From Pelagicoccus sp. SDUM812005 (lineage in GTDB: Bacteria; Verrucomicrobiota; Verrucomicrobiia; Opitutales; Opitutaceae): 64,000 nt of DNA. The notes below the pieces were generated by a model. It searched no databases, was not told the origin of the DNA, and saw nothing but the letters and a program-made list of their open reading frames with translations. The position numbers and the translations under genes were made by a program. Every line of letters starts with the position of its first letter. Position 1 is the stretch's first letter. The stretch lies in NCBI RefSeq assembly GCF_031127875.1, contig NZ_JARXIA010000026.1, positions 1 to 64,000 on the forward strand. Direction: 5' to 3'. Below are positions 3,955 to 63,537 of the stretch, piece after piece.

Positions 3955-6900
3955 ATGTCAAAAAAAATGAGAATGTACGGCAGCCTTTGCGCCGCTCTGT
4001 TTCTTTTTCTTTCAACCATGCACGCCCAGTTCGTGCATCCCGGGCTGTCGCACAAGCAGTCTGACCTGCACCGTATGCGAGACATGATCGAAGCTAAAGT
4101 CGATCCGTGGTATACCTCCTATCAGGAGTTTTGCGCCGATCCGAAGGCGAGCTTTGACTATGTCGTGCAGGGGGATCCGTCTTTGACGGTCGTTTACCGC
4201 GACGCGCCGCGAACTAACAAGAACAAGTGGGTAGACGACAGTCGCGCCGCCTACTACAACGCCTTGCGTTGGTGCATCGAGGGTGACGAGCGGCATGCTC
4301 AGAAGGCGGTCGAGATATTTAACGCATGGACCGGACTTACCTACGTTCAGGCAGGTGGCACGGAAGCTCTAAGCGGGAGCATGATCTATGTCATGGTCGA
4401 AGCGGCGGAACTGATTAAGAGCACTTACGACGGGTGGCTGGAGGAGGATATCCAGAAGTTCAAGGACATGTTGGTGTATCCAGGATACTCAACCACCGAG
4501 GTTCCTACGGACTTGAGGACGCAAGGGACGTGGTACTGGCGCTGCTACAAGTTCGACCGAGCCCGTGCTGGCAATCAGGAATTGAGCGCCATTCGAGCGG
4601 TAATGGCGATGGGCGTTTTTCTCGATAACGAGATCATGTACGATCGCGCCCTTCGCTATGTGAGTGGCTTGCCCGCGCGTGCGGATGACCTTCCTTACCC
4701 ACCGGGACCCAATATCCAAGGCGATGTGATCGAGGAGACGGAATACCGTATTTCCTATTCGATGACGGAAGACGATTCGATCCCGGACTATGGCTTCAAT
4801 GGCGTCATGACCCATTACATCTGGGAGAATGGACAATGCGAGGAGAGCTCGCGCGACCAGGGACATACGATCTATGGAATTGGACTGCTTTGCTCTTTGG
4901 GCGAAATGGCTTGGAACCAAGGCGACGACCTTTGGGGGCATGCCGACTCCCGGACTCTGCTCGGACTCGAGTATACGCTTCGCTACAACGTTTCCTACCT
5001 GCAGTCCTACCCAGATCAGGCTTCTCCTTGGGAGCCGACTGTCGAGTCTGGCGAATTTATCCAACGAGTCGATCGGACGGCCCGCACCAAGTCTTTGAAG
5101 ATCAATCCGTACTTGGCTTCCGACTACACGCGAATCACCCGCGGCCAATTCTACAACCAGAACACCTTCGAGCTACCATTGGCGCACTATGTGGGGCGGG
5201 GGTTCAAGAGCACGGACAGCGATGCCAAATGGCTAGCCCGCGCGAGAGACTATTCCTATGAGGTCGACGGACAGTACGAAGGGCCTTCGACTGACAATGG
5301 ATATCTCGGCTGGGGGGCGCTTACCTTCCGGCGCCCAGAGCTTTGTTATGGAGATCCGATCAGCGGTTTCAACGAAGAGGGCTTGCCAATTTTCTCGATG
5401 CATAGTTTGCCGGCCACCATCGAAGCTGAAAATTTCGACTATTCGCCGGTCAGCGGCGAGGGGCGCATTTACCATGACACTACAGTTGGCAACTCCGGCG
5501 GCGCCTACCGAACGGATGAGAGCGTAGACATCGAGGCGCTGCCGGACGGTGGCAATGCGGTCGTTTCGATGGAAGCGGGCGAATACCTCGTCTACACGGT
5601 GAGCGTGCCGGGGAATGCGGCGTACAACCTGAGCGCTCGGGTTTCTGGCCTCGCGGCGGGTGGTACCTTGAGTGTATCGTTTGGAGGTGTGGATCTCGCT
5701 GGACCGATTGAGGTCCCCGCTACCGGTGGTTCCCAGAATTGGGTTGATCTTGAGCTGGCTAGCAACGTGAGCCTGACGCAAGGAGTGCAAGCGATGACGA
5801 TCACTGTCGGCGGAGCCAGCAATGTCGTGAACCTAGATAGCGTGACAGTGGACTTGGTGAGCAAGCTGGATCAGTCGATCGCGTTTCCTGCGTTGCCGAT
5901 CGTGGAGCTGGGCGAACCGGCGGTTTACTTGGAGGCCCAAGCAAGTTCCGGGCTAGCGGTTCGTTACGCGAATTCCAATGAAGAAGTCGCGACCGTATCC
6001 GGAAGGACCCTACACGCTGTGGGAGAAGGCGTGGCAACGATTACCGCGAGTCAAGCAGGCAGTGTCGTGTACAACGCGGCCCGAGACGTATCCCGCGTTT
6101 TTCAGGTCAACCCACGCGGCTCGTCGGTAAAGGTCGAGGCGGAATCCTACGTTGCCCAGTCGGGTACGCGGACGGAATTGACCGAAGACGATGGCAGCCT
6201 GAACCTAGGTTACATTGAAGAGGGCGATTACATGGAGTACGAGGTGGAAGTGCCTCTGGCCGGTACCTATGTCCTGCAGTACCGCGTTGCCTCGCGGGAC
6301 AATGGAGCTGCCTTGTCGGTGACTCGAGATGGTGTCGTGATCGATTCCTTAGCGAGTTTGCCGACAGGAGGTTGGCAATTCTTCGAGACGGTCGGTAGCA
6401 AGACGCCTGTCGAGTTCTCGGCGGGGACGCACACGATTCGTATCACGGCCGAAGGATCTGGTTGGAACATCAATTGGTTTCGATTGGCACTGGTCGAGCC
6501 GCTCGGCGGGAACCCGCCGGAAAAGTCCTTTCAGTTCATCGAGTTCGATGCTTTGGAGCCTGCGATCGTCAGTGATCCGGACATTGACCTGGCAGTGACT
6601 GCGAGTTCCGGGTTGCCAGTAGACATCGAGAGTTCGAATCCGTCAGTTGCGGTTGTATCCGGTGGAGTCGTACAGATTGTGGGTGAGGGCACCACCTTGC
6701 TGACTGCTTCGCAAGCGGGCAATGGAAGCTACTATCCTGCTTCGGACTTTATTCGAGCGTTGGTTGTTCGGCCTGAGCCAAGCCTGAAATTCGAGGCAGA
6801 GGACTTTTCGAGTCAGCTTGGGGTCAGCGTCGAAAATACCACCGATTTTGGTGGCGGCCGGAACGTGGGCCGAATCGACGCAGGGGACTACATGGAATAC

Positions 6901-8529
6901 AGCGTTTCGATTCCACGCAGCGGTCAGTACCTCCTCGCGTACCGAGTCGCGAGTCGCGACAACGGCGGATCATTTGATCTAAAGCTCAACGACGAGGTAG
7001 TGGATGGTCTCAGCTTCGCTCCGACCGGGGGCTGGCAGGACTGGGAAACGGTGCACTCAGGCAACTACCTGCCGATCGAAGCGGGTGACTACACCGTACG
7101 CATTGAGGTTGATGGAAGCGGATGGAATTTTAACTGGTTCCAGTTCCTTTATGCGGGAGCGATCGGAGCTCCGAGTCCGAGCAAGATCAAGCAGACGATC
7201 GAATTCAGCGGTTTTCCGGAGTTGCAGGTGGGCGATTTCGACTATCCGATTGAAGCTGTTGCCACTTCTGGACTCGAGATCAGTTACCTGAGCTCGGACC
7301 CTAGCGTTGCTAGCGTATTGGACGGGAAACTACAGTTAAATGGGGTGGGAACCGCCACGATCACGGCCTCTCAGGCCGGAGACTCGTTCTTTGCGGCAGC
7401 GTCGGAAGTTTCCCGAGTCGTAGTCGTGACCCCCGTGCCGGTAACGGTTCTTGTGGAAGGCGAGGACTGGGTGAACCAGTCGGGCTTGAGAACGGAGACT
7501 ACCAGAGACGTGGGTGGGGGGCTAAACGTGGCTTATATCGACACGGGAGATTTCGCCGAGTACTCGGTCGAATTTCCGGTGAGCGGTCTCTATTCCCTCG
7601 AATACCGCGTGGCGGGCCGCAGTTCCGGCGCGTTGGCCCTGAGTGTTGATGGAGACTTGCTCGACGAGGTGAGCTTTCCTTCAACCGGAAACTGGCAGAA
7701 CTGGGAAACTGTAAGCTCGGGGGAGACCGTGTTCTTATCCAAGGGGGGCCGCTATATGCGTCTCGACATTGCCAAAGGCGGGTGGAACTTGAATTGGTTT
7801 CGCTTCGTGCTGGAAGAAGGTGATACCGATGAGGATGGCGTCCTCGACGGCTCCGACGCATTCCCTGAAGACCCAAGCGAGTGGGCGGACAGCGACGGTG
7901 ACGGCATCGGAAACAACGCTGACCTCGACGACGACAACGACGGGGTAGCCGATTCCGAGGACGCCTTTCCGCTCGACCCGACTGAGTCCGAAGACCTCGA
8001 TGGGGACGGTATCGGCAACAACGCCGATTTGGATGATGACGGAGACGGCATTGAGGACGAGTGGGACAACTGTCCTACCATTCCGAATACGAATCAGGTC
8101 GACCTCAATGGTGACGGCTACGGTGACTTGTGCGTGGCCGCTGACGTGAACATCGACTCCAGCGTGGTAATCCTTTACGCTCCGCTGATCGGATCTGGGG
8201 TTTCGATCCACAAGGACGTTGTGATCGGCGACCATGTGAATATCGGAGCCGGCGTGGAGATCCATAAGGATGTCATCATCGGAAACGATTTCGCAGTGGG
8301 CGAGAACTCCAAGATCAAGAAGACCGTTTCGATCGGCAACGATGTCTTTGTCGGTGACGGCGTGGATATCGACAAGGATACGGTGATCGAAGACGAGGTC
8401 GTCATCGGCGACAACGCGACCATCAAGAAGAACGTGTTGATCGGCGCCGGTTCCTACATCGGCCGTGGCGTGATGATTGAGAAGGATACGGTAATTCCTC
8501 CGGGCTCTTATTATCCCGATGCAGAGTAG
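3955..8529 (+). CDS. Secreted alginate-lyase-superfamily polysaccharide lyase with CBM6 domains, TSP3 repeats and a beta-helix tail
   Basis: A 1524-residue secreted enzyme. Residues 1-24 are a signal peptide (ends TMHAQ). Residues about 25-480 match the alginate_lyase fold (PF05426, as in PL38 and relatives): LRWCIEGDE, ESSRDQGHTIYGIG and MAWNQGDDLWG give the usual (alpha/alpha) toroid signature, so cleavage of a uronate-containing chain is likely. Four carbohydrate-binding domains follow. The first (485-640) is divergent. Three are good CBM6 types (about 722-845, 942-1065, 1162-1287), each with TGGWQ/TGNWQ and NWFRF-like endings. They alternate with three Ig-like domains containing ATITASQAG. 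TSP3 calcium repeats (1288-1395) lead into an 18-residue-periodic hexapeptide beta-helix (1398-1524). There is no Shine-Dalgarno site; the ATG is chosen for the signal peptide. The exact substrate is unknown. Confidence 0.85.
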   Translation: MSKKMRMYGSLCAALFLFLSTMHAQFVHPGLSHKQSDLHRMRDMIEAKVDPWYTSYQEFCADPKASFDYVVQGDPSLTVVYRDAPRTNKNKWVDDSRAAYYNALRWCIEGDERHAQKAVEIFNAWTGLTYVQAGGTEALSGSMIYVMVEAAELIKSTYDGWLEEDIQKFKDMLVYPGYSTTEVPTDLRTQGTWYWRCYKFDRARAGNQELSAIRAVMAMGVFLDNEIMYDRALRYVSGLPARADDLPYPPGPNIQGDVIEETEYRISYSMTEDDSIPDYGFNGVMTHYIWENGQCEESSRDQGHTIYGIGLLCSLGEMAWNQGDDLWGHADSRTLLGLEYTLRYNVSYLQSYPDQASPWEPTVESGEFIQRVDRTARTKSLKINPYLASDYTRITRGQFYNQNTFELPLAHYVGRGFKSTDSDAKWLARARDYSYEVDGQYEGPSTDNGYLGWGALTFRRPELCYGDPISGFNEEGLPIFSMHSLPATIEAENFDYSPVSGEGRIYHDTTVGNSGGAYRTDESVDIEALPDGGNAVVSMEAGEYLVYTVSVPGNAAYNLSARVSGLAAGGTLSVSFGGVDLAGPIEVPATGGSQNWVDLELASNVSLTQGVQAMTITVGGASNVVNLDSVTVDLVSKLDQSIAFPALPIVELGEPAVYLEAQASSGLAVRYANSNEEVATVSGRTLHAVGEGVATITASQAGSVVYNAARDVSRVFQVNPRGSSVKVEAESYVAQSGTRTELTEDDGSLNLGYIEEGDYMEYEVEVPLAGTYVLQYRVASRDNGAALSVTRDGVVIDSLASLPTGGWQFFETVGSKTPVEFSAGTHTIRITAEGSGWNINWFRLALVEPLGGNPPEKSFQFIEFDALEPAIVSDPDIDLAVTASSGLPVDIESSNPSVAVVSGGVVQIVGEGTTLLTASQAGNGSYYPASDFIRALVVRPEPSLKFEAEDFSSQLGVSVENTTDFGGGRNVGRIDAGDYMEYSVSIPRSGQYLLAYRVASRDNGGSFDLKLNDEVVDGLSFAPTGGWQDWETVHSGNYLPIEAGDYTVRIEVDGSGWNFNWFQFLYAGAIGAPSPSKIKQTIEFSGFPELQVGDFDYPIEAVATSGLEISYLSSDPSVASVLDGKLQLNGVGTATITASQAGDSFFAAASEVSRVVVVTPVPVTVLVEGEDWVNQSGLRTETTRDVGGGLNVAYIDTGDFAEYSVEFPVSGLYSLEYRVAGRSSGALALSVDGDLLDEVSFPSTGNWQNWETVSSGETVFLSKGGRYMRLDIAKGGWNLNWFRFVLEEGDTDEDGVLDGSDAFPEDPSEWADSDGDGIGNNADLDDDNDGVADSEDAFPLDPTESEDLDGDGIGNNADLDDDGDGIEDEWDNCPTIPNTNQVDLNGDGYGDLCVAADVNIDSSVVILYAPLIGSGVSIHKDVVIGDHVNIGAGVEIHKDVIIGNDFAVGENSKIKKTVSIGNDVFVGDGVDIDKDTVIEDEVVIGDNATIKKNVLIGAGSYIGRGVMIEKDTVIPPGSYYPDAE
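8148..8526 (+). repeat. C-terminal beta-helix segment shared with the 2091-residue protein
   Basis: This 3' end is nearly identical in base sequence to 63157-63534. For example, both read gtttcgatccacaaggacgt and gtgatcggcgaccatgtgaa. It encodes repeats of 18 residues of the form xxIxKDVxIGxxxxIGxG. The high base identity between otherwise different genes points to recent duplication or gene conversion. Confidence 0.85.
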
Positions 8530-8556
8530 CTGTAGCTAGAAGATTGCTACAAGGAG

Positions 8557-8590
8557 ACGGCTCCAGCTTTCCGCTGGAGCCGTTTTTCTT
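8557..8590 (+). terminator. Intrinsic terminator after the PL-like gene
   Basis: Stem ACGGCTCCAGC / GCTGGAGCCGT with loop TTTCC, followed by TTTTCTTT. A strong rho-independent terminator. Confidence 0.85.
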
Positions 8591-8682
8591 TATGTTGGCC
8601 GGCGGCACGAGGACTGCCTCCTTGCTCCACTTCGAGTTCGATTCGAGCGATTTTCTTCCCGGGTTTTGCGATTTTCAGGAGG

Positions 8683-8694
8683 TTACCAGTGTAA
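8683..8694 (+). promoter_or_regulatory. Operator-like palindrome copy 2 (TTACCAGTGTAA)
   Basis: TTAC-N4-GTAA, 140 bases before the beta-helix gene at 8835. Six bases after it comes CTTGTGTCGT, aligning with the secondary CTnGAWTCG block seen after copies 3, 4, 6 and 7. The rest of the 8591-8834 gap contains no gene I can support. Confidence 0.6.
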
Positions 8695-8834
8695 CATTGG
8701 CTTGTGTCGTGTGTGGCAGAGCCGATTTGCATAGATTGAGGTTTGATCCCCTGTTTCCCTGAACGCCCGCCCCTGCCTCGAATTTGGAGGGATCGTTGCG
8801 CGCGGGGCGAGTGGACATGATTCCCCCAGTTGTT

Positions 8835-10145: not shown

Positions 10146-10221
10146 GGAGCCTGCTCCCGGTTTTTCCAAGAGGACGAAAATACTGCGGTGGGAGTGGGGG
10201 CGATGATGACCTTCCTTGCCG

Positions 10222-10233
10222 CCTGTTAACAGG
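10222..10233. promoter_or_regulatory. Perfect 12-bp palindrome before first heparinase-like gene
   Basis: CCTGTTAACAGG lies 11 bases upstream of the ATG at 10245, where it could block promoter or ribosome access. It differs from the TTAC-N4-GTAA element. Function unknown. Confidence 0.35.
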
Positions 10234-10244
10234 GCCTAACAATT

Positions 10245-17290: not shown

Positions 17291-17299
17291 TTTTAGAGG

Positions 17300-17850
17300 C
17301 GCCAGTCCCGGAGCCGCTCGTTTACCTGCGCAGCAGGCGGCGAGCGAAGCGTTGTTTAAACGTTTTCGTTTGCAGGATCTTGGATTTAACATCGCTCCTT
17401 CGTCGCTGGACCCGCTGCCCGGCGATGATCCGACTCCGTCGGCAAGGACCGAAGCGAGTAGTCGAAAGAAAGGCATAATCAAACTCCTCGCCGCTCGTAG
17501 ACTGGATCCTCGCCCTGCGCAGGAGGCGGCGAGCGAAGCGTTGTTTAAACGTTTTCGTTTGCAGGATCTTGGATTTAACATCGCTCCTTCGTCGCTGGAC
17601 CCGCTGCGCGGCGATGATCCGACTCCGTCGGCGAGGACCGAAGCGAGTAGTCGAAAGAAAGGCATACTCAAACTCCTCGCCGGTCGTAGACCGGATCCTC
17701 GCCCTGCGCAGCAGGGGTCAAGCGAAGCGTTGTTTAAACGTTTTCGTTTGCAGGATCTTGGATTTAACATCGCTCCTTCGTCGCTGGACCCGCTACGCGG
17801 CAGTGATCCGACTCCGTCGGCGAGGACTGAAGCGAATATGTTTATGAAAG
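17300..17850. repeat. Tandem hairpin repeat, array A (about three 189-bp units)
   Basis: Three copies with an exact 189-base period; the shared word agcgaagcgttgtttaaacg starts at 17343, 17532 and 17721. Units contain short perfect hairpins with 3-base loops, for example CCGAC-tcc-GTCGG, CCGC-tgc-GCGG, CCGGTC-gta-GACCGG and CCCTGC-gca-GCAGGG. The same family occurs in the opposite orientation at 42030-42660. Because 189 is a multiple of three, the array stays open in frame (17283-18032), but in the other array the spacing is 194 and 192, so I treat it as non-coding repeat DNA. Confidence 0.85.
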
Positions 17851-35770: not shown

Positions 35771-35877
35771 CTAGAGCATTTTTCGTTTGATCATTCGCAT
35801 AAGGTAGGGCGGGACCGCCGGGCACGCCGCGTCTCCCTCATCACACAGTAAGACTAACTAAACGAAAAACGCTCTAG
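35771..35877. repeat. MITE-like element with 18-bp terminal inverted repeats
   Basis: CTAGAGCATTTTTCGTTT at 35771-35788 and AAACGAAAAACGCTCTAG at 35860-35877 are inverted copies with one mismatch, 71 bases apart. The interior holds no ORF but contains GTAGGGCGGGACCGCCGGGCA, a GC-rich palindrome-like string. The size and structure fit a small non-autonomous element or a REP-type unit. No clear target duplication is visible. Confidence 0.5.
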
Positions 35878-42029: not shown

Positions 42030-42665
42030 CTTGTTTAGACCCTGCCACGAAGGTGTTCTTTAACAACGCTGCGCTTGATCCCTGCTTCGCAGGGCGAGGA
42101 TCCGGTCTTCGACCGGCGAGGAATTTGTTGATGGCTTCGGTCTTTCGACTACCCGCTTCGGTTCTTGCCGACGCAGTCGGATCCTTGCCTCGCAGCGGAT
42201 CTAGCGACGCAGGAGCGATGTTAAGATTTACGATCCCGCAACGATGATGTTCTTTAACAACGCTGCACTTGATCCCTGCTTTGCAGGGCATGGATCCGGT
42301 CTTCGACCGGCGAGGAGTTTGTTGGTGGCTTCGTCTTTTCGACTACCGCTTCGGTCCTCGCCGACGCAGTCGGATCCTTGCCGCGCAGCGGGTCTAGCGA
42401 CGCAGGAGCGATGTTAAATTTACGATCCCACAACGATGATGTTCTTTAACAACGCTGCGCTTGATCCCTGCTTCGCAGAGCGAGGGTCCGGTCTTCGACC
42501 GGCGAGGAGTTTGTTGGTGGCTCCGGTCTTTCGACTACTCTCTTCGGTCCTCGCCGACGCAGTCGGATCCTTGCCGCGCAGCGGATCTAGCGACGCAGGA
42601 GCGATGTTAAGATTATTAATCCTCCACGAAGGTGTTTTTGATTAGGTTGCCCTTGATCTCTTCGA
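42030..42665. repeat. Tandem hairpin repeat, array B (three units plus a partial fourth), inverted relative to array A
   Basis: The word tgttctttaacaacgctgc starts at 42054, 42248 and 42440, spacing 194 and 192. A partial fourth copy (cctccacgaaggtgttttt) begins near 42620. The reverse complement aligns with array A at 17.3-17.85 kb, for example caaactcctcgccggtcg. Units show hairpins CCGGTC-ttc-GACCGG, CCCTGC-ttt-GCAGGG, CCGAC-gca-GTCGG and CCGC-gca-GCGG, all with 3-base loops. Since spacing is not constant modulo three, coding is unlikely. The rest of the 41931-42729 gap holds no gene I can support. Confidence 0.85.
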
Positions 42666-51010: not shown

Positions 51011-54000
51011 ATGATCGATAAAGGAAACAAATACCTCAAGGGCTTTGCGGTCGCTGGAGCTTCCTTGGTCGCAGCGAAATTTGGATACGCAGCGACCGTG
51101 AAGTGGGACAGCGGAGGAAGCGACTCCAAGTGGGAAACTGCTTTGAATTGGGATACGGATTCGTTGCCGACGAGCGCGGATACGGCCTATATCAGCGATG
51201 GTGGAACGGCAGGATTCGATGCCGTATCGGATTCCGCGTCCGTAAGCCGGCTCTATGTCGGATACACGGGCGATGGTACTTTAAATGTCTCGGGAGGCTC
51301 GCTGAAGGCGACGCAGACCGGATCGAACACTGTTTTCTTGGTTGGAAACGGGGCGATTGGTACTTTGAACGTGAGCGGCGGCGAGCTGGATGTCGGGCAT
51401 CGGGCCCAGATCGGCGCAGGCGCGAATGGGCAGGGGACCGTTAAGCTTAGCGGCGGCAGTTTTATCGTCAGTCGAGGTGGTAATTCGAAAATCGATACCA
51501 GTTTCGGTAGCACGTCCCTAGATTTGGGCGTAGCGGCAAGCGGCTCCTCAGGGCTGCTGGAAGTGAGCGGTGGCGTCTTCAAGACCCGTGCCGGGGCGGT
51601 GATCGGCCCGAACGGGACCCTCAAGGTCGAAGGTTCCGGCGCTACGGAGATCGGGATCGGCTCGCACGGTTCGGTTGACGGCTTCTGGCTGCAGAAGGCG
51701 GGAGGCGTGTTGCAGGTGCGTGTAGACAGCGACGGAGTGACTCCGATTTTCGTCGACGATGTGGGCGACGACGGCGCGGGCCTACAGGGCAACGTAAAGT
51801 TTGAAAGTGGCGCCTTGCTCGATGTGAGCCACATTTCCACTGCTGTGGATGGGACCTTCACCGTAATGGAGTGGGAAGGTACCGTGACCGACGAAGGCCT
51901 GGCTTTCGCTCCCGGAGTGGACACCAGCATCTGGAGCTTCGCGATCGACGAGACGGCCAAGAAGCTCACGGTCACGGCTGTCGGTTCCCCGGTTACTCAA
52001 CTTTTCTGGGAAAACAGTTTGAGCGACAACGACTTTGCCAAGGCCGAAAACTGGGACTTGGATATGAGTTTTGCGGGCATGAACATGATCGTGGATCGTG
52101 TGGGGGCCAACAAGGCGATCTTGGCAACTAATTTGGCCGACAACCTGATGGCGTTGAGAATTGGATACCAGATCGGCGATGGCGAATTCGAGCACACCGC
52201 AGGCAGCTTCAAGGCGACTCAGAACTCTTCCGCCTACAGCCGTGTCGGTGGAAATGGATACACGGGTACGTGGCGAATGAAAGGCGGCGCCGCAACGATC
52301 AATACCATCCATCTTGGATTGAGTGGCGGTACCGGAAATCTCGTCATCGAAGACGGGGCAATGGATATCGCGCGGGCGGCAGGTGATTACAGCTTGCAGG
52401 TCGGCAACGGCGGTACCGGATACTTCGAAATTTCCGACGGTCGACTTCGCACCCGTGCCGGAGTGCGGGTGAGCGGCACTGGAACCTTCACCGTCAACGG
52501 CAGCGCTCCAACAGCTGTGGGTATCGGGTCTCACAACAACGTCGACGGACGTTGGGTGCAGGAAACAGGTGGCGTCTTGAAGATCGGTATCGATGAAACC
52601 GCTACAGGCGTGACGCCGATCTTCGTAGACGAAAAGGACGGTACGCCCGGGAACTCCTGGGATGGCAACGTAACCTTCGAGGCGGGCTCCTTGCTTGATG
52701 TTAGCTTCTTGGGCGCCGAGAATTACGGCACCTTTACGGTGATGGAATGGGAAGGCGAGCTCGTAGACAATGGCTTGGAGTTTGCCCCTCACGTCGACCG
52801 CATGCGCTGGAGCTTCGATCTCGATGAAGCGAACAAGCGCCTCACGGTCACGGCTCGCGCCTCAGATGCTCCTCGCACTGCGTTGACGGTTGACACCATC
52901 GAGGATTTCCAAGCGGCAGCTGGTTTGGATCACCACGAGATCACTCTCGCTCCAGGTGAGTATTGGTTAGTTGGGGACAAGTCCCTGAGGGGGGCTGAGT
53001 TCGCTCCGCTTTTGAACCTCAGCGGTTTCAACACGCACTACAATCTGGAAGGGGTTACGCTCAACGTATCCACCGAAGACCTAGCGGGTTACGGCAACCG
53101 GACCATCGTGTTCGTTGTCCAAGTTTCCGGCGACAACTGTACGGTAGAAGGCCTCACCTTGAAGATGGTCCACACCTCGATCAAGGGTACGGATACTTGG
53201 GGCTATGAGCGTCAATGGACTGCGGATAAGAGTTCAGTGGTCGTTTGCGTTACCGGTTCCAACACCGTGATTCGAGATTGGGATGTTACCACGGGTGGAT
53301 CCTATCCCTATGGTTTTGGCGATGCTTTCGGTAAGGGCGCCCGCCCAAACTCCGGCGGAGTAACGAATGCGGCCTTCATCTCCCACAAGAAGCAGAGCGG
53401 GTTTTTGATCACTCATGGCGCGGACAATGTTCTCGTCGAGGATGTGACCTTGAACATGCGCAGCTTTGGCCATGGCTTCTTCCTGCAAGGGGGAGCCAGC
53501 AACATCGTCTTCCGTCGCTGCCAGGCGATCGGCGACGAGATGGCGGATAGCGACGATATCATCGCCCATCCCGTGTATCAGGAATGGGGATTCGCGACCT
53601 ATAAGGAACCCATCCCTTCCGGCATCAAAATCTCTAAGCACGAAGGTGGCTTCCGCTGGTACGGAAACTCCGCTTCAGCCACGAACGGTTGGCCGGCGCA
53701 AAGCAGCAACGTCTTGATCGAAGACTGTCGTGTCGAGCGGATGCGTACCGGCGTTGCTCCCGGATATGGCGAAGGTTTCCTCCATGTTAAGAATATGGAA
53801 GCCTACGACTGCGAGTTCGGCTTCGCGACCAGTGCCGGAGCGGACGACATTCTCTTCGAAAACTGCAAGGGCAATGCTGTGAACGGGCCGCTCGTCTACT
53901 TCCAGTACGGGGCTGACAACGCGGTGATGGATATCGAACTGACCGGCGACAAGCCTGCTAACGGCGTTTGGCCAATCGCCTTGATCGGCGGTGACAACAA

Positions 54001-56755
54001 CCACGTTACGATCACGAGCTCGGCCCTGCCTGGCATGTATCCGAAGGAAGCCTACGTTAACGTTTCCCAAACCTGGCGCGAATGGCGCCACCGTCCGAGT
54101 CCCGATCCGGACGCCTCCGGAAGCAACTACTCCAAGGCGGCTAGAAACAACACCATTCTCAACTACACCGACCAGATCATGGTGTTCGGCAAAAATGCGA
54201 CCGACAACGTGGGCTGCGTATCGCTGGGTGGAGTGATCAATAAGGGGCGCAACAACGAGTACGTTGGCACCACCTTGGTTCCCGAGCAGATTACGGTTAT
54301 CGATACTTGGAGTTCTCCGAACAATCCAATGGATGTACCTTGGGCCCAGTGGGATTCGAAGGGTAACCAAATTCTACCTACGCCTCCGGTCGAAATTTTC
54401 TCCGGCCACAAGCTGGTTGACGAAGCCTTGGCGCTGGGCGGTTCCTCGGATGAAGACGAGGGAACGATCGTCAGCTCCGGCGCGACCTTGGAAGTCGCTA
54501 GCGGCTTCGCTCTGCAGAACGAGATGATCTCGATTAGCGGATCCGGCATCGACGGCAAGGGCGCGATCTACTCGGAAGGCGCGGCAGGTACCGCGACTCG
54601 CCTGAACTCCAGTTCTGGTCGCATCACGCTCGATGGCGATGCCACGATCGGTGTCGGCGTGGAAGGAAACCAGCTGCTCGTCGGCCGTATCGATGGAGCT
54701 GGCGTCCTTACGAAGTCCGGTCCCGGCCAGCTTACGATGGAAGGCAACAGCAACCTGTTTACGGGGACGTTGGTAGTCGCCGAAGGCGTGGTTCGGGCCC
54801 GTCCGAACAAGGCCAATATGGATTTGCGTATCGAGCCGGGCGCCTTGCTGGGGCAGAGCGGAAACGCGGCCGTGAACCAGAAGGCTGACAAGTCTGCCAC
54901 CGTTGACGGCACCTTGGACTTGAACGCTCGAGGCGTAGCCGATGGCAATAGCCTGTCGGCAAGCGTTGGTTCGCTTCATGGAAGTGGACTGATCACCTCA
55001 ACCAGTGAAGCGGCTGTTCAAAGCTTGAACGTTCTTTCGGACGGCAGCTTCGATGGCACGATCGAAGGGCGAATCGCGCTCGTGAAGCGTGGCGCCAGCT
55101 CGGAACTCGTTCTCGGCGGCGCGAACACCTACTCGGGGCCGACTTCGGTTCTCGAAGGAAAGCTTAGCGTAAATGGAAGCATCGGCGCCAGCAGTGCGGT
55201 GATTCTGGATACAGGTGCCTCCCTTGGAGGCAGCGGAACGATCGCCGGTCCCGTCGAAGCGAAGGCTGGATCCGCTCTCGCGGCCGGCAGCAGCGTCGGC
55301 GAATTGACCCTTGGCAGCCTGAGCCTTGCAGCCGGCGCGGTCCTGGAGGTAGAAATGGACGATGCTCAAGGGCTTGCCGGTTCCACAGGCTGGGACTTGC
55401 TAAGCGTTCAGGGTGCCGTCAGCTACCTTGCTGGCCCGGATCCGATCGTCGTTAAGCTAAGCAGCCTGCAGGGATCCGTGGCCAACTTCGATGGAAGCGC
55501 CGATTCGAGCTGGGTGATCTTGCAGGCAGGTAGCGGCGTTTCTTCGCTCGCCGGCGCAGGGTTCTCGATCGAGGTTACCGATGTGCCTGGCTCGGAGAAC
55601 GGACTCTTTTCGGTCCAAGTATCCGAAACGGAACTACGTCTCGTCTACGAAGTGGACACGGACGGGGATGGCGTTGGGGACAATGCTGACGCTTTCCCGA
55701 CTGACCCAACGGAATGGGTCGATTCCGACGGCGATGGTACGGGCGACAACAGCGATGCCTTCCCGAGCGATCCGACGGAAAGCAAGGATAGCGACGGGGA
55801 TTCGGTAGGCGACAACGCCGATGCCTTCCCGTATGACGCGTCCGAATCCGCTGACTACGATGGAGATGGAATCGGCGATAACGCCGATCCTGACGACGAC
55901 AACGACGGCACCCCAGACAGCTCCGACGCCTTCCCCTTCGATCCAGCCGAGGATAGCGACAACGACGGCGACGGCGTGGGCGACAATGCCGACCTCGACG
56001 ACGACAACGATGGCGTTAGCGACTTGGAGGACAGTTGCCCGACAGCGGCGAACCCCGGGCAGGAAGATGTCAATGGCGACGGCTACGGCGACGTGTGCGT
56101 GGATACCGGTTCGGATATCTCCAAGCACGCCCGTATCGGCTACGACCCCTACGTCGGCGCCGGAACGGTTATCAAGCAGCACGTCTTGATCCTCGATCAC
56201 GCCGTGATTGGCGAGAACGTGGAAATTGGCCAGCGAGCCACGCTTGGCCACTCCGTTACGGTGGGCAATGGCAGCGAAATCGGCGAGCACAGCTGGATCG
56301 GCGACTCTGTTTTCATCGGCGAGAACGCTTCCATCGACCGCTTCGTCATCCTCCGTGACGGCACCCAAGTGGGCGACGGAGCCCGTATCGAGCGCTTCAG
56401 CGAGTTTGGCGAAAACGCCTTCTTTGGCGCGAATTCGCAGGTCGGCTTCTTCGCTCGCGTCGGGGAAGGCTTCTCCCTCGGCGAGGATTCCGAGCTGAGC
56501 TTCTTCGCTCGCATTGGCGACGATGTTACGCTTGGAGATCGCGTGGAAGCAGGCTACTTCTTCCGTGTCGCAACGGGAGCGATGCTTGGCGACGACGTGA
56601 AGATCGACAAGTTCGTTTCGATCGGAGCGAATACTCGCATTGGCAACGACGTCGAGATCGGGCGCTTCGTTCGTATCGGAAACAATGTTACGATCAAGGA
56701 TGGAGCCAAGATCCGCTCCGGCTCTCGCATCCAAGACGGAGCGGTCGTCGAATAG
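51011..56755 (+). CDS. Giant secreted protein: two solenoid domains, beta-helix domain, autotransporter-like strands, TSP3 repeats, left-handed beta-helix tail
   Basis: 1914 residues. Signal peptide 1-27 (ends FGYAA). Residues about 28-325 and 330-617 are two copies of the solenoid domain also found alone at 27025; both end with FTVMEWEG. A right-handed beta-helix domain (620-1110) has SIxDF-type opening VDTIEDFQAAAGL, then GSYPYGFGDAFGKG (about 763) and GHGFFLQGG (about 820), matching 8835 and 57262. Then come passenger-type strands (1140-1545) with ELVLGGANTYSGPTSVLEGK, the autotransporter-associated repeat. TSP3 repeats (1548-1695) lead to a beta-helix of about eleven 18-residue coils (1700-1914). 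No beta-barrel translocator is present, so it is not an autotransporter. Probably a cell-surface or released glycan-active protein; activity unknown. Confidence 0.8.
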   Translation: MIDKGNKYLKGFAVAGASLVAAKFGYAATVKWDSGGSDSKWETALNWDTDSLPTSADTAYISDGGTAGFDAVSDSASVSRLYVGYTGDGTLNVSGGSLKATQTGSNTVFLVGNGAIGTLNVSGGELDVGHRAQIGAGANGQGTVKLSGGSFIVSRGGNSKIDTSFGSTSLDLGVAASGSSGLLEVSGGVFKTRAGAVIGPNGTLKVEGSGATEIGIGSHGSVDGFWLQKAGGVLQVRVDSDGVTPIFVDDVGDDGAGLQGNVKFESGALLDVSHISTAVDGTFTVMEWEGTVTDEGLAFAPGVDTSIWSFAIDETAKKLTVTAVGSPVTQLFWENSLSDNDFAKAENWDLDMSFAGMNMIVDRVGANKAILATNLADNLMALRIGYQIGDGEFEHTAGSFKATQNSSAYSRVGGNGYTGTWRMKGGAATINTIHLGLSGGTGNLVIEDGAMDIARAAGDYSLQVGNGGTGYFEISDGRLRTRAGVRVSGTGTFTVNGSAPTAVGIGSHNNVDGRWVQETGGVLKIGIDETATGVTPIFVDEKDGTPGNSWDGNVTFEAGSLLDVSFLGAENYGTFTVMEWEGELVDNGLEFAPHVDRMRWSFDLDEANKRLTVTARASDAPRTALTVDTIEDFQAAAGLDHHEITLAPGEYWLVGDKSLRGAEFAPLLNLSGFNTHYNLEGVTLNVSTEDLAGYGNRTIVFVVQVSGDNCTVEGLTLKMVHTSIKGTDTWGYERQWTADKSSVVVCVTGSNTVIRDWDVTTGGSYPYGFGDAFGKGARPNSGGVTNAAFISHKKQSGFLITHGADNVLVEDVTLNMRSFGHGFFLQGGASNIVFRRCQAIGDEMADSDDIIAHPVYQEWGFATYKEPIPSGIKISKHEGGFRWYGNSASATNGWPAQSSNVLIEDCRVERMRTGVAPGYGEGFLHVKNMEAYDCEFGFATSAGADDILFENCKGNAVNGPLVYFQYGADNAVMDIELTGDKPANGVWPIALIGGDNNHVTITSSALPGMYPKEAYVNVSQTWREWRHRPSPDPDASGSNYSKAARNNTILNYTDQIMVFGKNATDNVGCVSLGGVINKGRNNEYVGTTLVPEQITVIDTWSSPNNPMDVPWAQWDSKGNQILPTPPVEIFSGHKLVDEALALGGSSDEDEGTIVSSGATLEVASGFALQNEMISISGSGIDGKGAIYSEGAAGTATRLNSSSGRITLDGDATIGVGVEGNQLLVGRIDGAGVLTKSGPGQLTMEGNSNLFTGTLVVAEGVVRARPNKANMDLRIEPGALLGQSGNAAVNQKADKSATVDGTLDLNARGVADGNSLSASVGSLHGSGLITSTSEAAVQSLNVLSDGSFDGTIEGRIALVKRGASSELVLGGANTYSGPTSVLEGKLSVNGSIGASSAVILDTGASLGGSGTIAGPVEAKAGSALAAGSSVGELTLGSLSLAAGAVLEVEMDDAQGLAGSTGWDLLSVQGAVSYLAGPDPIVVKLSSLQGSVANFDGSADSSWVILQAGSGVSSLAGAGFSIEVTDVPGSENGLFSVQVSETELRLVYEVDTDGDGVGDNADAFPTDPTEWVDSDGDGTGDNSDAFPSDPTESKDSDGDSVGDNADAFPYDASESADYDGDGIGDNADPDDDNDGTPDSSDAFPFDPAEDSDNDGDGVGDNADLDDDNDGVSDLEDSCPTAANPGQEDVNGDGYGDVCVDTGSDISKHARIGYDPYVGAGTVIKQHVLILDHAVIGENVEIGQRATLGHSVTVGNGSEIGEHSWIGDSVFIGENASIDRFVILRDGTQVGDGARIERFSEFGENAFFGANSQVGFFARVGEGFSLGEDSELSFFARIGDDVTLGDRVEAGYFFRVATGAMLGDDVKIDKFVSIGANTRIGNDVEIGRFVRIGNNVTIKDGAKIRSGSRIQDGAVVE

Positions 56756-56798
56756 CGTTTCGAAGTTTCCTTAGACTATTGTTCTTAAGATTAGATCG

Positions 56799-56829
56799 GG
56801 CGCCTCCCTTCGGGGAGGCGCCTTTTTTT
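56799..56829 (+). terminator. Intrinsic terminator after the 1914-residue protein gene
   Basis: Perfect stem GGCGCCTCCC / GGGAGGCGCC with a TTCG loop and seven T residues. Confidence 0.92.
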
Positions 56830-56920
56830 GCGCGATTCGTCGCCTTGGGCAAAGCAGGGCGAGGCATCTGGCGCCGCCGGCGATGAGCTCGAGTTGGATG
56901 CCGTTCCCGTTTGCAGAGAT

Positions 56921-56932
56921 TTTACAGTGTAA
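56921..56932 (+). promoter_or_regulatory. Operator-like palindrome copy 7 (TTTACAGTGTAA)
   Basis: Identical over TTTACAGTGTAAGCG to copy 6 and followed after six bases by CTGGAATCGT. It is 329 bases before the start of the 2091-residue protein gene, the longest distance of the set. The rest of the 56830-57261 gap contains nothing I can name. Confidence 0.55.
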
Positions 56933-57261
56933 GCGCGGCTGGAATCGTAATGGAAGGGGGATGTTTGCTTCAAGGGTAGTCCCCGAAAACCCGTGTTGCC
57001 CTCTCTTATGAATCTACCTGGCGCCTTGCTTCCGTTTCGATCTTTCGCGCTGTAAGCTGAGCTCAGGTCTTCGAGTTGGGGACGACGATTCCAAAACAAC
57101 TTAAACCCAAGGTTCGATTGTCTCGGCCGCATTACGGCGAGCCGACGATTCGTGCGATATAGATACTTAAACTAGGATGTGTCGTGGAAGGCTGTCCGTG
57201 TTTGTTAGCTGAACGGGACGCGTCTTCAGCTACTCGGTTAAGAGTGTCTTAGACCTAAATT

Positions 57262-60200
57262 ATGAAACGAATTATTAATAATACCCCTAGGTGGGCCGCC
57301 TCGCTATTCTCAGCTGGCTTGCTTGCTGCGGTGCCGATGCAAGCGGAAGTCGTTTTCCTGCATAGCTTTGACGGCGTTGAAAATGAAGTAGGGCCTACGT
57401 TGCAGTATTTTTATAATGGGGCAGGCACCGCCAGCCACGACCTTGCTACCGGAGAACTGTCAGGGGCTAGCAATGGGGCCCCCGGGTTCAACACCGTTAG
57501 TGGCTTGGACCTGAGCGCTTATTCTGATTTCACCATAGAGTTCGTAGTTGAGAACAACTACAGCGCTATCGTGAACGGAGGCATTAACGGCACGTTTTTT
57601 GGTATTACAAATTCCCCTACGGCGAACAATACCGACGGGGGCGCTCTCTTTAACAATGCCGGATCCACGACGGGAACGGCGATCGGTCTTCAGGTCGGAC
57701 CGGGGCGCGGCGGCGCGGGAGCGGATTTTGCCTTCGACGAAGTTGCGGGCAATGGAAGCTTCACCGCTATCAGCGAGCCAAGCGACGACGCTACGGACGG
57801 TTATTCGATTTTCATCAAGTATTCCGAGGAGGCGGGTACGGGGAATACAGCGGTGACCATCACCTCTACTGGTTTGGATGCTGATCTTAATTATAGCGCG
57901 GTTGCGGCTACGAGATTTTCGAATTTTGCAAGTTGGGTAACCCCGAATGTATCCGCCCAGAACGGGACGCTCAACCTTAGCAGCATCAAAATCACTGCTG
58001 AGGCGACTGCGTTGGATACCGATGGCGATGGGGTGCCGGACGACGTGGATACGGACGATGACAACGATGGTGTGCCCGATGAGCATGACGCGTTTCCGCT
58101 CGATCCATCGAGATCGTCCCTCGAGTCCGAGGTCGCGTTTTTCCATAGCTTCGATGGTAGCGACAATGAGGTCGGTCCGCTCTTGCAAGTTTTCGACAAT
58201 GGAGGCAGCCACAGCGATGACATCGCTACGGGAGAGCTTTCCGGAGTAGGCTCCGGGGCTGCCGGTTTCAACACAGTGAGCGGTATCGATTTAAGCGTCG
58301 CTTCGGAAATGCTCATCGAGTTTGTCGTTGAAAACAGCTACAGCGGCATATCGAGCGCCGGCTTGAACGGGACTTTCTTCGGTATCACGAATTCCACGAC
58401 GTCGAACGCGACGGATGGCTCAGCGCTCTTCAACAACGCTGGTTCAGCGACTGGAACTGCGATCGGCCTCCAAGTTGGGCCAGGACGCGGTGGTTCCGAA
58501 CTCTCGTTCGCTTTTGACGAAGTTCCCGGCAATGGAAGTTTTACGGCTATCGGCTCGGCTCTCGAAGACGGGACGGAGGGTTACTCTATTTTCGTAAAAT
58601 ACGCGGAAGAGGCGGGTACTGGAAATACGGTAGTCACGATTACGTCGACTGGATTGGATGCTGACATCGACTTTACTTCCGTAGCTGCCACGAATTTCGC
58701 AGCGTTGGCGAGTTCTGTGACTCCTAACGTATCCACGCAGGGCGGTAGCCTGGATCTGAGCAGCATCAAGATCACTTACGGCATCGCTGATGCGGACGGA
58801 GATGGCATACCGGACGGAACGGATACGGATGATGACAACGATGGCGTACCCGACGTCGACGACGCTTTCCCGTTTGATCCGACCGAAGATACGGACACGG
58901 ACGGCGACGGAATTGGAAACAACGCGGACACGGATGACGACAACGACGGTATCCTTGACGAAGACGACGAGTTTCCGTTGGACGGCACCATTACGGTCAA
59001 CTCCCTGGCGGAGCTCTATCCCTACCTGGACGACGACAACGTTTCAGTGAAGTTGGCTCCCGGTACCTATCGGATTACGCCGAGCGATATTACGAGCGGA
59101 GAGATCGGTTTCGTGGAACCGATTCAGGATACGCGGGCTTTGCTCATGTTTCAGGGCAACAACAGCGTCTACGACTTTGCAGGCGTAACGATTGAAGTTG
59201 AGACAGGCGTATTCAATGCTTTCGGAAACTACGCGGTGCATGAGCTGCACCTTCTCGGTAACTACAATGTAGTTAAAAACCTGACACTCGTAGACGTGGG
59301 CTCCGTTCACGACTATCCACGCAAGGGAGCCTTGAGCGCTTTGATGGACGGAATCGAGAACCGGCTAGAAGGCGTGCACATGACCGTGCGCGGTTCCTAT
59401 CCGTATGGCTACGGCGATGCTTTCGGCAAGGGTGGCTCTTATACCATCAAGCACTTTAAGCACAGCGCCTTGCTGGTTCGCGGTCAGCGGAACCACGTTA
59501 AGGATTGTACAATTATCCATCGCGCTTACGGGCACGCCATATTTATGCAGGGGGCTGATAGCCCTACGATCGAAGGCTGTTATATCGAGGGCGAGGTACG
59601 CAGCACGGATGACATGCTGGCCGAAACTTCGGGCCCGGCTTACGATATCGATTTTATGACTGATTGGGGCTACCGTTTGCCGCCTGGCTTTATGATGAGT
59701 CTGCAGGAAGAGGGCATTCGAGCCTACGACGGCGGACGAACCATCATCAACGGGGAGCAACTGGAACCGCGTGCAGCGAGCAACCCGACGGTGATAAACT
59801 GTACGGTGAAACGTATGCGTGGCGGAGTAACGCTGCCTCACGCCACTGGCACGAGAACCGTGATCGGCACTACCACTATTGAGTGCGAGCAGGGCTTCTC
59901 CATCGGTGGTGGAACCATTGAGGATTGCGCCAGCGACGCGAAATACGGTCCAGTGCTCGGATTCCCGTATTCTAGGTCCAGTGGCACCAATGCAGATATT
60001 ACGATTCTGCCGAGCGACGACTCGCTAAACGGTTCTGGGCTGGTTGCCTATATTGGAGGTCGGAACCATAACATTACGCTGCGAAGCTCGGAAGGCGCCG
60101 TGAATCCGAACCTGAAGATTGGCATGGGCATGCCCAGAGATGACGTGCGTGGCCTTGCGGATCTAACGGCCACGGACATTCAGATCAACAATTTGACCGG

Positions 60201-63200
60201 ATACCCGCTGGAGCTCGGACCCGATAGCGCGGGCACGACTGGCGCCTCCGTTGGCCCTGTGACGGATAACGGTACCGATAACAGCGTGAGTTCAACGACG
60301 GACGATAGCTGCGGCGGCTTTGGAGCCCTGAATTCGATCGAAGCAGAAGCTTACTGCGGGCAGTCGGGAGTGGAGATCGTTCCGAATTCCGATGGCGGCT
60401 TCAGCGTTAGCGGCATCGACGACGGGGATTGGATCAAGTTCGAACGAGTATACTTCGGAAACGGTCCGGACCTTGTCGATGCGGTTGTGTCGAGCGCCGC
60501 GGCTGGCGGTTCCATCGAGTTCCGCGCCGGATCGGTTAACGGCGACTTGATTGCATCGCTCGAAATCGGCGCGACAGGCGACCTTGCCACATTGGCTACC
60601 TTGACGACTGAGGCTGCAAAGACCTTAGGCCTGCAGGATTTGTATCTTGTATTCAAAACTCCAGTTAGTGGCCAGTATCAGCTCGACTCGATTCGTTTCC
60701 GCATGGATTTGGTGATCGATACGGATAGTGACGGCATTCCAGACGAAGTTGACGAAGACGACGATGGCGATGGTGTGAACGACGAGGAAGACGCGTTCCC
60801 GATGAACCCGGACGAGTCGGTTGACACGGACGGTGACGGGATTGGAAACAACGCCGATGCCGATGACGACAACGATGGCGTTGCTGATTCAGAAGACGCG
60901 TTCCCGCTCGACCCCACGAAGGCATCTATCACGGAAGACGTCGTTTTCGCTCATACTTTCGATGGCGTGGAGAATGAAGTCGGTCCCGCGTTGCAAGTTT
61001 TCGCGAACATCCCGAGCAGAACGAATTCCGACATCGGTGCTGGCCAGATCTCTGGCTCCAACAATGGGGCTGCTGGTTTCAACACGGATAGCGGATTGGA
61101 TCTCAGCTCTTATCCTGAGTTCACTATAAAGTTTGTAGTTGAAAACGACTACAGCAGTATCGCAAGCAGCGCGACCAATGGAGCATTCTTCGGGATCGCG
61201 AACTCTCCGACTGCCAACGCGACCGATGGAAGCGCGCTTTTCAACAATGCGGGATCTGAGTCGGGCACTGCTATTGGCCTTCAGGTAGGACCTGGACGTG
61301 GCGCTGCTGGTGCTGACTTTGCCTTTGACGAAGTTGCGGGCAACGGAAGCTTCACTGAAATTGGCTCTCCAAACGACGACGCGGTAGCTGGGTACACGGT
61401 TTCTGTTAAATACGGCGAAGACCCAGATACCGGAAATACGGTGGTAACGATTACGTCCACTGGCTTGTCGGAAAACTTCAATTACGTTACGGTCGCGCCT
61501 ACCAGCTACGCGGTTCTCGCTAGCGCAGTGACGCCGAACGTTTCAGCTCAAAACGGAGCTCTCGATCTTGCTAGCATTGCGATCACGTATCCCATCGATA
61601 CGGATGGCGATGGGGTTCCAGACGCGGTGGATACGGATGACGACAACGATGGCGTGCCAGACGAGGAGGACGCGTTTCCGCTCGATGCGTATGAGTCTGT
61701 GGATACAGACGGAGACGGCATCGGCAACAACGCGGACACTGACGACGACAACGACGGCGTCGCTGACGACGAAGATGTATTCCCCTTGGATCCGAGCAAG
61801 TCGGCTCACATCGAGATCCCGTTCTCGCATAGCTTCGACGAGATCGAAAACGAAGTCGGTCCAGCCCTGCAGGTTTTCGACAATGGGGCAGGCTCAACCA
61901 GCGTCGATATCGTGACTGGATTGCTCTCCGGAGCCGGCAACGGCGCTCCAGGCTTCAATACCGTGAGTGGTATCGACCTCAGCGCTCATTCGGAATTCAC
62001 CGTCGAGTTTGTGGTGGAGAACAACTACAGCTCGATTGTGGGCAGTGGAACCAACGGGGTTTTCTTCGGCATCACGAATTCGCCTACCTCCAACGCCACC
62101 AACGGAAGCGCGCTCTTCAACAACGCGGGATCGGCTGAAGGAACAGCTATCGGTCTGCAGGTCGGACCAGGCCGTGGCTCCGCCGGGGCGGATTTCGCGT
62201 TCGATGAAGTCCCAGGTAACGGAAGCTTCACCGCAATCGGCGCTCCAAGCGACGACGATACCGATGGTTACACAATCTCGGTGACCTACGCGTACGATGC
62301 AGCTACGGGGCATACCGCAGTTCAGATCGTATCCAAGGGATTGGATGTTGACCTCGATTATAGCACGATCGCTCCGACGGATTACTTGGAGCTCGCTAGC
62401 TCGGTTACACCGAATGTTTCCGCTCAGAACGGAACTCTGAATCTGGCAAGCATGCGAATCACCTATCCGTCTCCCGATGCGGATGGCGATGGCGTTCCTG
62501 ACAAACTGGATACGGACGACGACAACGATGGGGTGTCCGATGAAGAGGATGCCTTCCCGCTGGATGGATCGGAGTCGTCCGACTACGATGGCGATGGCAT
62601 CGGCGACAATGCCGATCTCGACGACGACAATGACGGAGTCGCGGATACGGAAGACGCGTTTCCTTACGATGCGGCGGAAGCTGTGGATACGGATGGAGAC
62701 GGCATCGGAAACAATGCTGACCCCGATGACGACAACGACGGCGTTAGCGATGCGGAGGACTTGTTTCCGCTGGATTCTACCGAATCAACGGATCACGACG
62801 GCGACGGTATTGGCGACAACGCGGATCTTGACGATGACAACGACGGCGTTGCGGATACGGAGGATGCCTTCCCGTACGATCCTGCAGAGTCTGTCGATAC
62901 GGACGGTGATGGCATTGGAAACAATGCCGATCTCGACGACGACAACGATGGGGTACCTGATTCCGAGGACGCTCTCCCGCTAGATCCGACGGAGACTGAG
63001 GACCTCGACGGAGATGGTATTGGCGACAATGCTGATCTCGACGACGATGGTGATGGCATCGATGACGAGTGGGACAATTGCCCCACTGTAGCGAATGTGA
63101 GCCAGCTTGACCTAAATGGCGACGGTTACGGCGACCTGTGCGTGGCGGCGGACGTCAACATCGATTCTAGCGTGGTAATCCTCTACGCGCCGTTGATTGG

Positions 63201-63537
63201 ATCTGGAGTTTCGATCCACAAGGACGTTGTGATCGGCGACCATGTGAACATCGGTTCCCGCGTGGAAATCCATAAGGAAGTGATTATCGGTAACGACTTC
63301 TCGGTGGGTGATGACTCCAAAATCAAAAAGGCTGTCTCGATTGGCAACGAGGTCTTTGTCGGGGCCGGAGTGGACATCGACAAGGACACGGTGATCGAAG
63401 ACGAGGTCGTCATCGGCGACAACGTGACGATCAAGAAGAACGTATTCATCGGTGCCGGTTCCTACATCGGTCGGGGAGTAGTGATCGAGAAGGATACGAT
63501 CATTCCTGCTGGATCCTACTATCCGGACCTAGACTAG
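57262..63537 (+). CDS. Giant secreted protein: four repeated beta-sandwich domains, beta-helix domain, CBM6, TSP3 repeats, left-handed beta-helix tail
   Basis: 2091 residues. Signal peptide ends about residue 27 (VPMQAE). Four homologous domains of about 222 residues lie at 28-250, 290-510, 1227-1448 and 1517-1738; each starts LHSFDG/FSHSFDE-like, contains SALFNNAGS and [13 protein letters not shown], and ends [13 protein letters not shown] with I-T-Y. I expect a lectin-type beta-sandwich. A beta-helix domain (575-1015) has [15 protein letters not shown] (711) and GHAIFMQGA (757). A CBM6-like domain follows (1020-1152; [20 protein letters not shown]). TSP3 repeats separate all units and form a long run at 1739-1950; the tail (1960-2091) is the 18-residue-periodic beta-helix. 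Probably binds and cuts a polysaccharide at the cell surface; activity unknown. Confidence 0.8.
62476..63110 (+). repeat. Long TSP3 repeat tract in the 2091-residue protein
   Basis: About 630 bases of near-periodic coding sequence (gatggcgatggcatcggc and variants) encoding Asp-rich calcium-binding repeats of the form [20 protein letters not shown]. Shorter runs occur between the upstream domains. It is prone to copy-number change by slippage or recombination. Confidence 0.85.
63157..63534 (+). repeat. Beta-helix tail segment, twin of 8148-8526
   Basis: Encodes the same 126-residue tail as the 3955-8529 gene with only scattered, mostly synonymous changes. It begins at [19 protein letters not shown] and ends YYPDLD (YYPDAE in the other). 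Confidence 0.85.

Follow-up and report, generated by a model that had tools for sequence, protein, structure and literature searches.

Left-handed β-helices (LbH) built from hexapeptide repeats are known from acyltransferases, which are cytoplasmic, and the fold is regarded as textbook cytoplasmic enzyme machinery. The locus analyzed here raises the question of what such a fold could be doing at the C-terminal end of three long, apparently secreted proteins of Pelagicoccus sp. SDUM812005, in each of which it follows thrombospondin type 3 (TSP3) repeats.

The whole stretch of DNA that was analyzed (the window, 64 kb) is part of an 80.1-kb contig in a genome of 6.65 Mb and 118 contigs. Genes for GH97, an α-L-fucosidase, a sulfatase, a TonB receptor, DUF3450 and an ExbB-family protein were found in a scan of the 20 other open reading frames (ORFs) of the window, a set that would be expected of a polysaccharide degrader. 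None of these 20 ORFs, which include large ones with secretion-like N-termini, matched TSP_3 or Hexapep, and no tRNA genes were found within the 64-kb window. In diatom blooms, Verrucomicrobiota reportedly consume sulfated methyl pentoses, and Puniceicoccaceae MAGs from such blooms are reported to contain rhamnosidases (excerpt of PMC8857213).

The three proteins and the fold of their tails

The ORFs at 3955, 51011 and 57262 are each intact as one frame. Pfam matches and reading of the sequence agreed with the original prediction that all three end in TSP3 repeats and then in hexapeptide coils of 18 residues. The features are as follows.

3955–8529, + strand: protein A, 1524 aa; signal-peptide-like N-terminus (by eye), alginate-lyase-like domain, four CBM6 stretches, TSP3, short LbH
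7822–8136, + strand: TSP3 array of A
8137–8526, + strand: LbH tail of A, short type; seven 18-residue coils, six of which have Lys at position 8
51011–56755, + strand: protein B, 1914 aa; PATR/autotransporter-type repeats, right-handed β-helix region (sub-cut-off), TSP3, long LbH
55655–56101, + strand: TSP3 array of B
56102–56752, + strand: LbH tail of B, long type; 12 coils, with Phe at position 9 of coils 5–11
57262–63537, + strand: protein C, 2091 aa; repeated modules in the N-terminal part, CBM6, TSP3 as several pairs and as a terminal array, LbH of the short type
62476–63144, + strand: terminal TSP3 array of C
63145–63534, + strand: LbH tail of C, short type; 7 coils, 88% identity to the A tail
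7894–8541, + strand: 3′ DNA cassette comprising the TSP3 end, LbH, stop and 12 nt; 82% identity to 62902–63549
62902–63549, + strand: second copy of the 3′ DNA cassette

The Pfam TSP_3 scores of A, B and C were 36.7, 43.4 and 95.9 bits (cut-off 25), and those of Hexapep (PF00132) were 60.6, 94 and 60.7 bits (cut-off 27). In all three the LbH begins directly after the G-Y-G-D-[LV]-C-V motif that closes TSP3 and runs without insertions for 130 aa (7 coils), 217 aa (12 coils) and 130 aa (7 coils), respectively. The expectation of one shared C-terminal module stood insofar as TSP3-LbH is present on all three; the tails nonetheless fall into two sequence types, with that of B 34% identical to the other two over 111 residues. 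Likewise, the N-terminal parts, which were expected to differ, are mostly unlike, except that CBM6 is common to A and C and that one region is distantly similar in B and C (24.5% over 1113 columns, E 4.8e-37). The right-handed β-helix region of B scored 23.7 bits, under its cut-off of 25.9.

Among the best 25 of 34–40 NCBIfam matches of A, B and C, the autotransporter repeat TIGR02601 in B was the only model over its cut-off, and B is the only one of the three with PATR/autotransporter repeats. No enzyme model in that set passed (for example, 80.6 versus 242.5 bits), and the MtsC model matched through TSP3 only and under its cut-off. As predicted, neither Pfam nor those NCBIfam matches contained a PEP-CTERM, T9SS or autotransporter-barrel model for A, B or C.

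According to Pfam and PDB sequence matches, the tail is predicted to be a left-handed β-helix. Acyltransferases, named beforehand as the usual bearers of this fold, made up 60 of the 89 solved-structure (PDB) matches listed, the nearest solved chains among them being LpxD, QdtC, LpxA and GlmU. AlphaFold gave a mean pLDDT of 80.9 for a 7-row tail alignment and of 70.5 for a 9-row TSP3-LbH alignment, and both models have two-residue strands about every six residues. Foldseek returned 0 matches at E ≤ 0.001 for either model. The matches listed (the best 50 of 314 and the best 50 of 241) were mostly right-handed solenoids, with some TSP3 chains for the second model, and LbH was absent among them. 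Because of this absence the models do not support the hand of the fold and permit no docking. They were set aside as fold evidence, and we regard them as a failure of shallow alignments.

Two tail types in seven proteins

A query of the whole genome with the tail revealed seven full TSP3-LbH junctions: the three of the window and four others, on contigs C63, C31, C39 and C53 (one per contig). The TSP_3 family search gave nine matches, all within the same seven ORFs, each of which carries an LbH tail. The remaining matches of the tail query were repeat matches to these tails, a broken copy of the C31 tail and three small ORFs resembling LpxA, gamma-carbonic-anhydrase and sugar-acyltransferase proteins (by eye). 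The other LbH ORFs matched are without TSP3, and the tail is therefore not a feature of cytoplasmic enzymes in this genome.

The seven proteins are all long (1524–2091 aa). PF00132 scored 60.6–97 bits in 7/7 (cut-off 27), and PF02412 passed its cut-off in 7/7 in the genome search and in 6/7 in the protein scans, where the C63 protein reached 23.4 versus 25. The N-terminal partners outside the window are GH42-like (C63), LamG and Ig-like (C31), GHL15 (C39), and LamG, Ig-like and a sub-cut-off right-handed β-helix (C53). The short LbH of the C63 protein is followed by a dockerin-like end (21.7 bits, just under the cut-off of 22.9). Read by eye, no terminal membrane helix, lipobox or barrel was seen in the seven proteins, and the tails as read have no membrane helix plus basic end as in known C-terminal sorting signals; TSP_C, β-barrel and YadA anchor were absent from the Pfam matches of the seven. 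Export of the tail-bearing proteins by a type II system is possible, given a near full-length GspD-like secretin in the genome (327.1 bits, under the model cut-off of 351.35).

Two features were seen next to these genes. The next gene after that of the C63 protein (L025:10304-10951) has a PEP-CTERM-like end by eye, so a PEP-CTERM sorting system may exist beside the LbH proteins. Three genes for proteins of about 1330 aa (L026:784-4812, L028:393-4358 and L030:7500-11492), with DNA 64–66% related to each other and AraC-like C-termini by eye, adjoin the C31 protein, the C53 protein and the broken tail copy.

Hexapeptide regularity was expressed as the share of Ile, Leu, Val, Met and Phe in one phase. 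In the tails of A, B and C these residues occupy 95–97% of one phase, compared to a maximum of 0.58–0.73 in 2000 shuffles of each tail, and regularity was far above shuffles in eight of nine Puniceicoccaceae tails (C63 left out). The short type comprises A, C and C63, and the long type comprises B, C31, C39, C53 and two proteins of a second genome, Puniceicoccaceae bacterium K14. Lys occupies coil position 8 in 6/7 coils of A, 6/7 of C and 3/7 of C63. The outward position 11 is hydrophobic in short tails (mean hydropathy 2.8 to 3.5) and polar in long tails (−0.4 to −2.1), so that the two types have no face in common that resembles an interface.

All six long tails, from two genera, have exactly 12 coils. 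At position 9 of coils 5–11, Phe, Tyr or Trp fills 41 of 42 places, the remaining one being Leu (C39, coil 11), and C53 is the only tail with Trp and Tyr there. Aromatics at this turn position amount to 0.20–0.29 in the long tails versus 0–0.07 in six enzyme LbH controls. Coils of the same number are 55% identical across the six long tails, compared to 25% for different coils, and the best kept are coil 11 (73%) and coil 1 (66%). The exact coil number and the difference in coil identity make tail length and coil order look selected. All tails are acidic, with a net charge of −8 to −23.

The tails do not follow the rest of the proteins. In their N-terminal parts, protein A and one K14 protein are 50% identical over 1292 columns, but their tails, short in A and long in the K14 protein, are of different types and 32% identical over 96 residues. 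Conversely, A and C have 88% identical tails, and their best N-terminal match is CBM6 at 30%. The tail DNA of A and C is 82% identical over 648 nt, reaching 12 nt beyond the stop. On contig C31, a 635-nt copy of the C31 tail (L030:6510-7144, 93% identical) lies about 17.5 kb from the original without TSP3 or N-terminal part and overlaps the end of another ORF. Together, these comparisons show that the TSP3-LbH tail behaves as an exchangeable cassette that moves between unlike proteins. They bear out the prediction of a shared module on apparently exported proteins with diverse N-terminal parts, the N-termini being signal-peptide-like by eye in 9/9 Puniceicoccaceae proteins (the seven above and two of K14).

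Occurrence in other genomes

The genome under study is included in the family, genus and phylum counts, and the respective centre genome in the others; the large searches scored 13–21 candidates per genome (up to 36 in a 150-genome family sample). The junction was found in 2/252 genomes of the family, the same two as in the 150-genome sample, and in 1/387 sampled genomes of the phylum, together with three LbH-only matches. At the genus level, 1/8 genomes had a TSP_3 match at E 1e-4. This rarity indicates that related bacteria do without TSP3-LbH, and the family and genus counts weaken a general sorting or export role. The suggestion of a general surface or export tag was thus not sustained by these counts, nor by the G502 genome described below, in which LbH is internal in 23/23 ORFs read, or by Puniceicoccaceae bacterium K14, where one TSP3 protein has a different C-terminal domain.

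The second family genome, that of K14 (Verrucomicrobiota, Opitutia), was unmatched in the 387-genome sample and presumably not drawn. It has four TSP_3 matches in three ORFs, of which 2/3 are LbH-terminated. In the third protein (L109 first frame, G008:C7) another C-terminal domain follows the array, possibly an alternative terminal module.

Named genomes were scanned with one pattern, DGYGD[VLD]CV, which gave 29 stretches, 6 of them confirmed. Since this was a single pattern, unions with other TSP3 endings are missed and the named examples are biased to this ending. A mobile-element origin was also considered and rejected: viral contigs gave one pattern match, none confirmed, and plasmids gave no match.

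Outside the phylum, the junction was present in 3/61 genomes from the order of a Kiloniellaceae MAG, with TSP_3 itself falling short of the E 1e-4 standard in two of the three, and in 1/398 sampled genomes of that MAG's phylum, namely the MAG itself. Kiloniellaceae belong to the Alphaproteobacteria. Two of the proteins from this order (L046 and L098) have a basic, hydrophobic segment after the LbH that is perhaps membrane-interacting, and L099 is without it. A further search, centred on the MAG G502 (an uncultured proteobacterium), was positive in 2/282 genomes of its phylum, the second being the Myxococcota MAG KLAP118 (G501), of the same phylum. G501 has at least 147 TSP_3 matches (150 of 436 candidates scored) yet 2 junctions, so TSP3 does not imply LbH there.

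G502 itself has at least 23 matches at E 1e-9 (150 of 635 candidates scored). In the proteins read from Puniceicoccaceae, the Kiloniellaceae order and G501, the LbH lies at the C-terminal end or close to it, whereas other regions stand behind it in 23/23 G502 ORFs read. By eye, most of these consist of a hydrophobic N-terminal stretch, TSP3 or a variant (reduced, Asp- or Cys-rich), an LbH of about 200–300 residues and a differing C-terminal region; the exceptions are L080, cut by a contig end, and L093, without a hydrophobic stretch and with more than 200 residues in front. Of two ORFs run against Pfam, L047 matched Fibrinogen_C and L048 did not; the GGWT motif of Fibrinogen_C is visible by eye in L048, L081, L083 and L086. 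One G502 protein (L089) has a lipobox-like N-terminus by eye. The G502 LbHs are less regular, at 0.5–0.7 in 13 of 16 measured, near shuffled tails on a measure that assumes a single phase without insertions.

A profile of the six long tails scored most secreted LbHs above six enzyme controls (best 135.7 versus a best enzyme score of 59.0), but 5 of the 28 secreted ORFs, each of them from G502, fell below the best enzyme. A common origin of the LbHs across phyla is a possible reading of these scores, which are confounded by coil number.

Possible roles of the tail

The TSP3-LbH tail is a new combination of known domains. Searches of the open-access literature, with subscription papers and preprints outside, found no description of it. 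No paper in the open-access literature searched joined "left-handed beta-helix" with "thrombospondin type 3", and "thrombospondin type 3 repeat" with "bacterial transferase hexapeptide" returned PMC9957290 only, an excerpt of which names the two apart, with TSP3 in an ice-binding protein and hexapeptides in its downstream neighbours. The hexapeptide coils and best PDB matches listed resemble LpxD, LpxA, GlmU and QdtC (PF00132); unlike those enzymes, the tails stand behind TSP3 in giant proteins with signal-peptide-like N-termini, without catalytic loops or enzyme-specific parts. As in thrombospondins and COMP (PF02412), a TSP3 wire lies near the C-terminus, and 3fby (COMP) matches the first 23 profile positions, but LbH takes the place of the TSP_C lectin-like domain, which is absent from the Pfam matches. 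Saccharophagus carbohydrases also carry TSP3 on secreted polysaccharide degraders, and LbH is not among the modules printed in an excerpt of PMC2386152.

We favor, tentatively and at somewhat below an even chance, the view that the tail is an exchangeable extracellular assembly module, an oligomerization element or stalk that would cluster or hold proteins together. The signal peptide, recognized by eye, would take the protein across the inner membrane; outside the cell the acidic TSP3 repeats would, judging from their family, bind calcium and serve as a spacer; and the terminal LbH would form a rigid prism, 7 or 12 coils long, that associates with further copies, most likely in a parallel trimer like those of LpxA, LpxD, GlmU and gamma carbonic anhydrase. 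Enzyme and carbohydrate-binding arms would thereby be clustered on a common stalk, which may let them bind algal polysaccharide with avidity or keep them close to the cell.

LpxA, LpxD, GlmU, gamma carbonic anhydrase and QdtC are trimers, and this property of the fold relatives makes self-association our first choice and attachment our second. The loop insertions of acyltransferases carry active-site residues, and the coils read here are continuous without them. The whole helix is likely to serve a structural purpose, judging from its exact length, its coil-wise conservation, its mobility and the lack of enzyme features. An assembly role is also supported by the hydrophobic position 11 of the short tails and by the dockerin-like domain, just under cut-off, after one LbH, dockerin being an assembly domain. 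The low regularity in G502, the rarity among relatives and the presence of LbH in only 2/3 TSP3 ORFs of K14 count against it, as do the polar position 11 of the long tails and the absence of LbH among the Foldseek matches listed for both models. The head repeat of YadA and BpaC differs from the hexapeptide repeat, and no YadA anchor match was found here. These heads are nevertheless similar as a secreted left-handed parallel solenoid within a trimeric adhesin (excerpt of PMC9543794).

In G502 the unit is followed by variable regions or, in L047, by Fibrinogen_C, an arrangement like that of animal lectins with a trimerizing stalk. A wider version of the assembly reading, in which TSP3-LbH would be an extracellular multimerization stalk in at least three bacterial phyla (Verrucomicrobiota, Myxococcota and, via the Kiloniellaceae order, Pseudomonadota) with unrelated enzyme or recognition domains displayed at either end, is conceivable but doubtful. 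Such a stalk would be a counterpart of collagen-stalk lectins and cellulosomal scaffolds, working via self-association instead of a scaffoldin. A fixed-length LbH cassette on polysaccharide-related proteins that appear to be secreted, which in another phylum forms a constant base to which variable domains are joined, would extend the ways in which bacteria assemble proteins outside the cell and might supply protein engineers with a trimer or spacer element.

The strongest rival, which we consider rather unlikely, is surface attachment, in which the LbH would bind the cell's own envelope or exopolysaccharide, with TSP3 as a spacer, in a role like that of MYXO-CTERM or a lipid anchor. The C-terminal or near-terminal LbH in Puniceicoccaceae, Kiloniellaceae-order and G501 proteins would fit this role, as would the different domain in the same slot of the third K14 protein, and the stacked Phe of coils 5–11 or the Lys edges could contact a repetitive polymer. 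TSP3 precedes the C-terminal MYXO-CTERM in MtsC as well, judging from the NCBIfam model name and matched positions; that element, however, is made up of a short cysteine motif, a membrane helix and an Arg-rich end and is cut by myxosortase (excerpt of PMC11980579), unlike the β-helix of 126–217 residues found here. Attachment is opposed by the regions that follow LbH in all G502 ORFs read and by the seven proteins of this genome, which show no terminal membrane helix, lipobox or barrel by eye, and the two unlike side-chain ladders in one genome would demand two ligands or two modes.

A very stable C-terminal fold could also shield the proteins from proteolysis or drive their folding on export, without a specific partner. 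We hold this to be improbable: the tails are always on long proteins in this genome and a secretin is present, near full-length but under cut-off, yet a mere cap needs neither an exact 12-coil length nor coil-specific sequence, and the 20 other window ORFs, large secretion-like ones included, do without TSP_3 or Hexapep.

About equally improbable is a glycan-binding surface, on which a ladder of side chains (Phe in the long type, Lys in the short type) would lie along algal polysaccharide. The partners (alginate-lyase-like, GH42-like, GHL15 and CBM6), the sulfatase, fucosidase, GH97 and TonB-receptor genes of the window and the aromatic content of the long tails relative to the six enzyme controls speak for it. 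Acidic tails are, however, poorly suited to anionic glycans, CBM6 already provides binding in several of the proteins, and edge Phe stacks often merely stabilize β-solenoids. Finally, an active acyltransferase domain fused to secreted enzymes is extremely improbable: acyltransferases are the closest sequence relatives among the matches listed, but the tails have no loops, no enzyme model passed among the best 25 of 34–40 NCBIfam matches, and acyl-CoA and acyl-ACP are not known to occur outside the cell.

Other features were observed beside the tails. An ORF outside the window (L029:1016-4138) runs into a masked (X) stretch of its contig. Within the window, 17325–17838 and 42034–42661 each consist of overlapping tandem copies (87–95% identity inside each site), and the two sites are in opposite orientation with 79–85% identity. 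A 102-nt element at 35772–35873 is 95% identical to L030:11492-11593 on contig C31.
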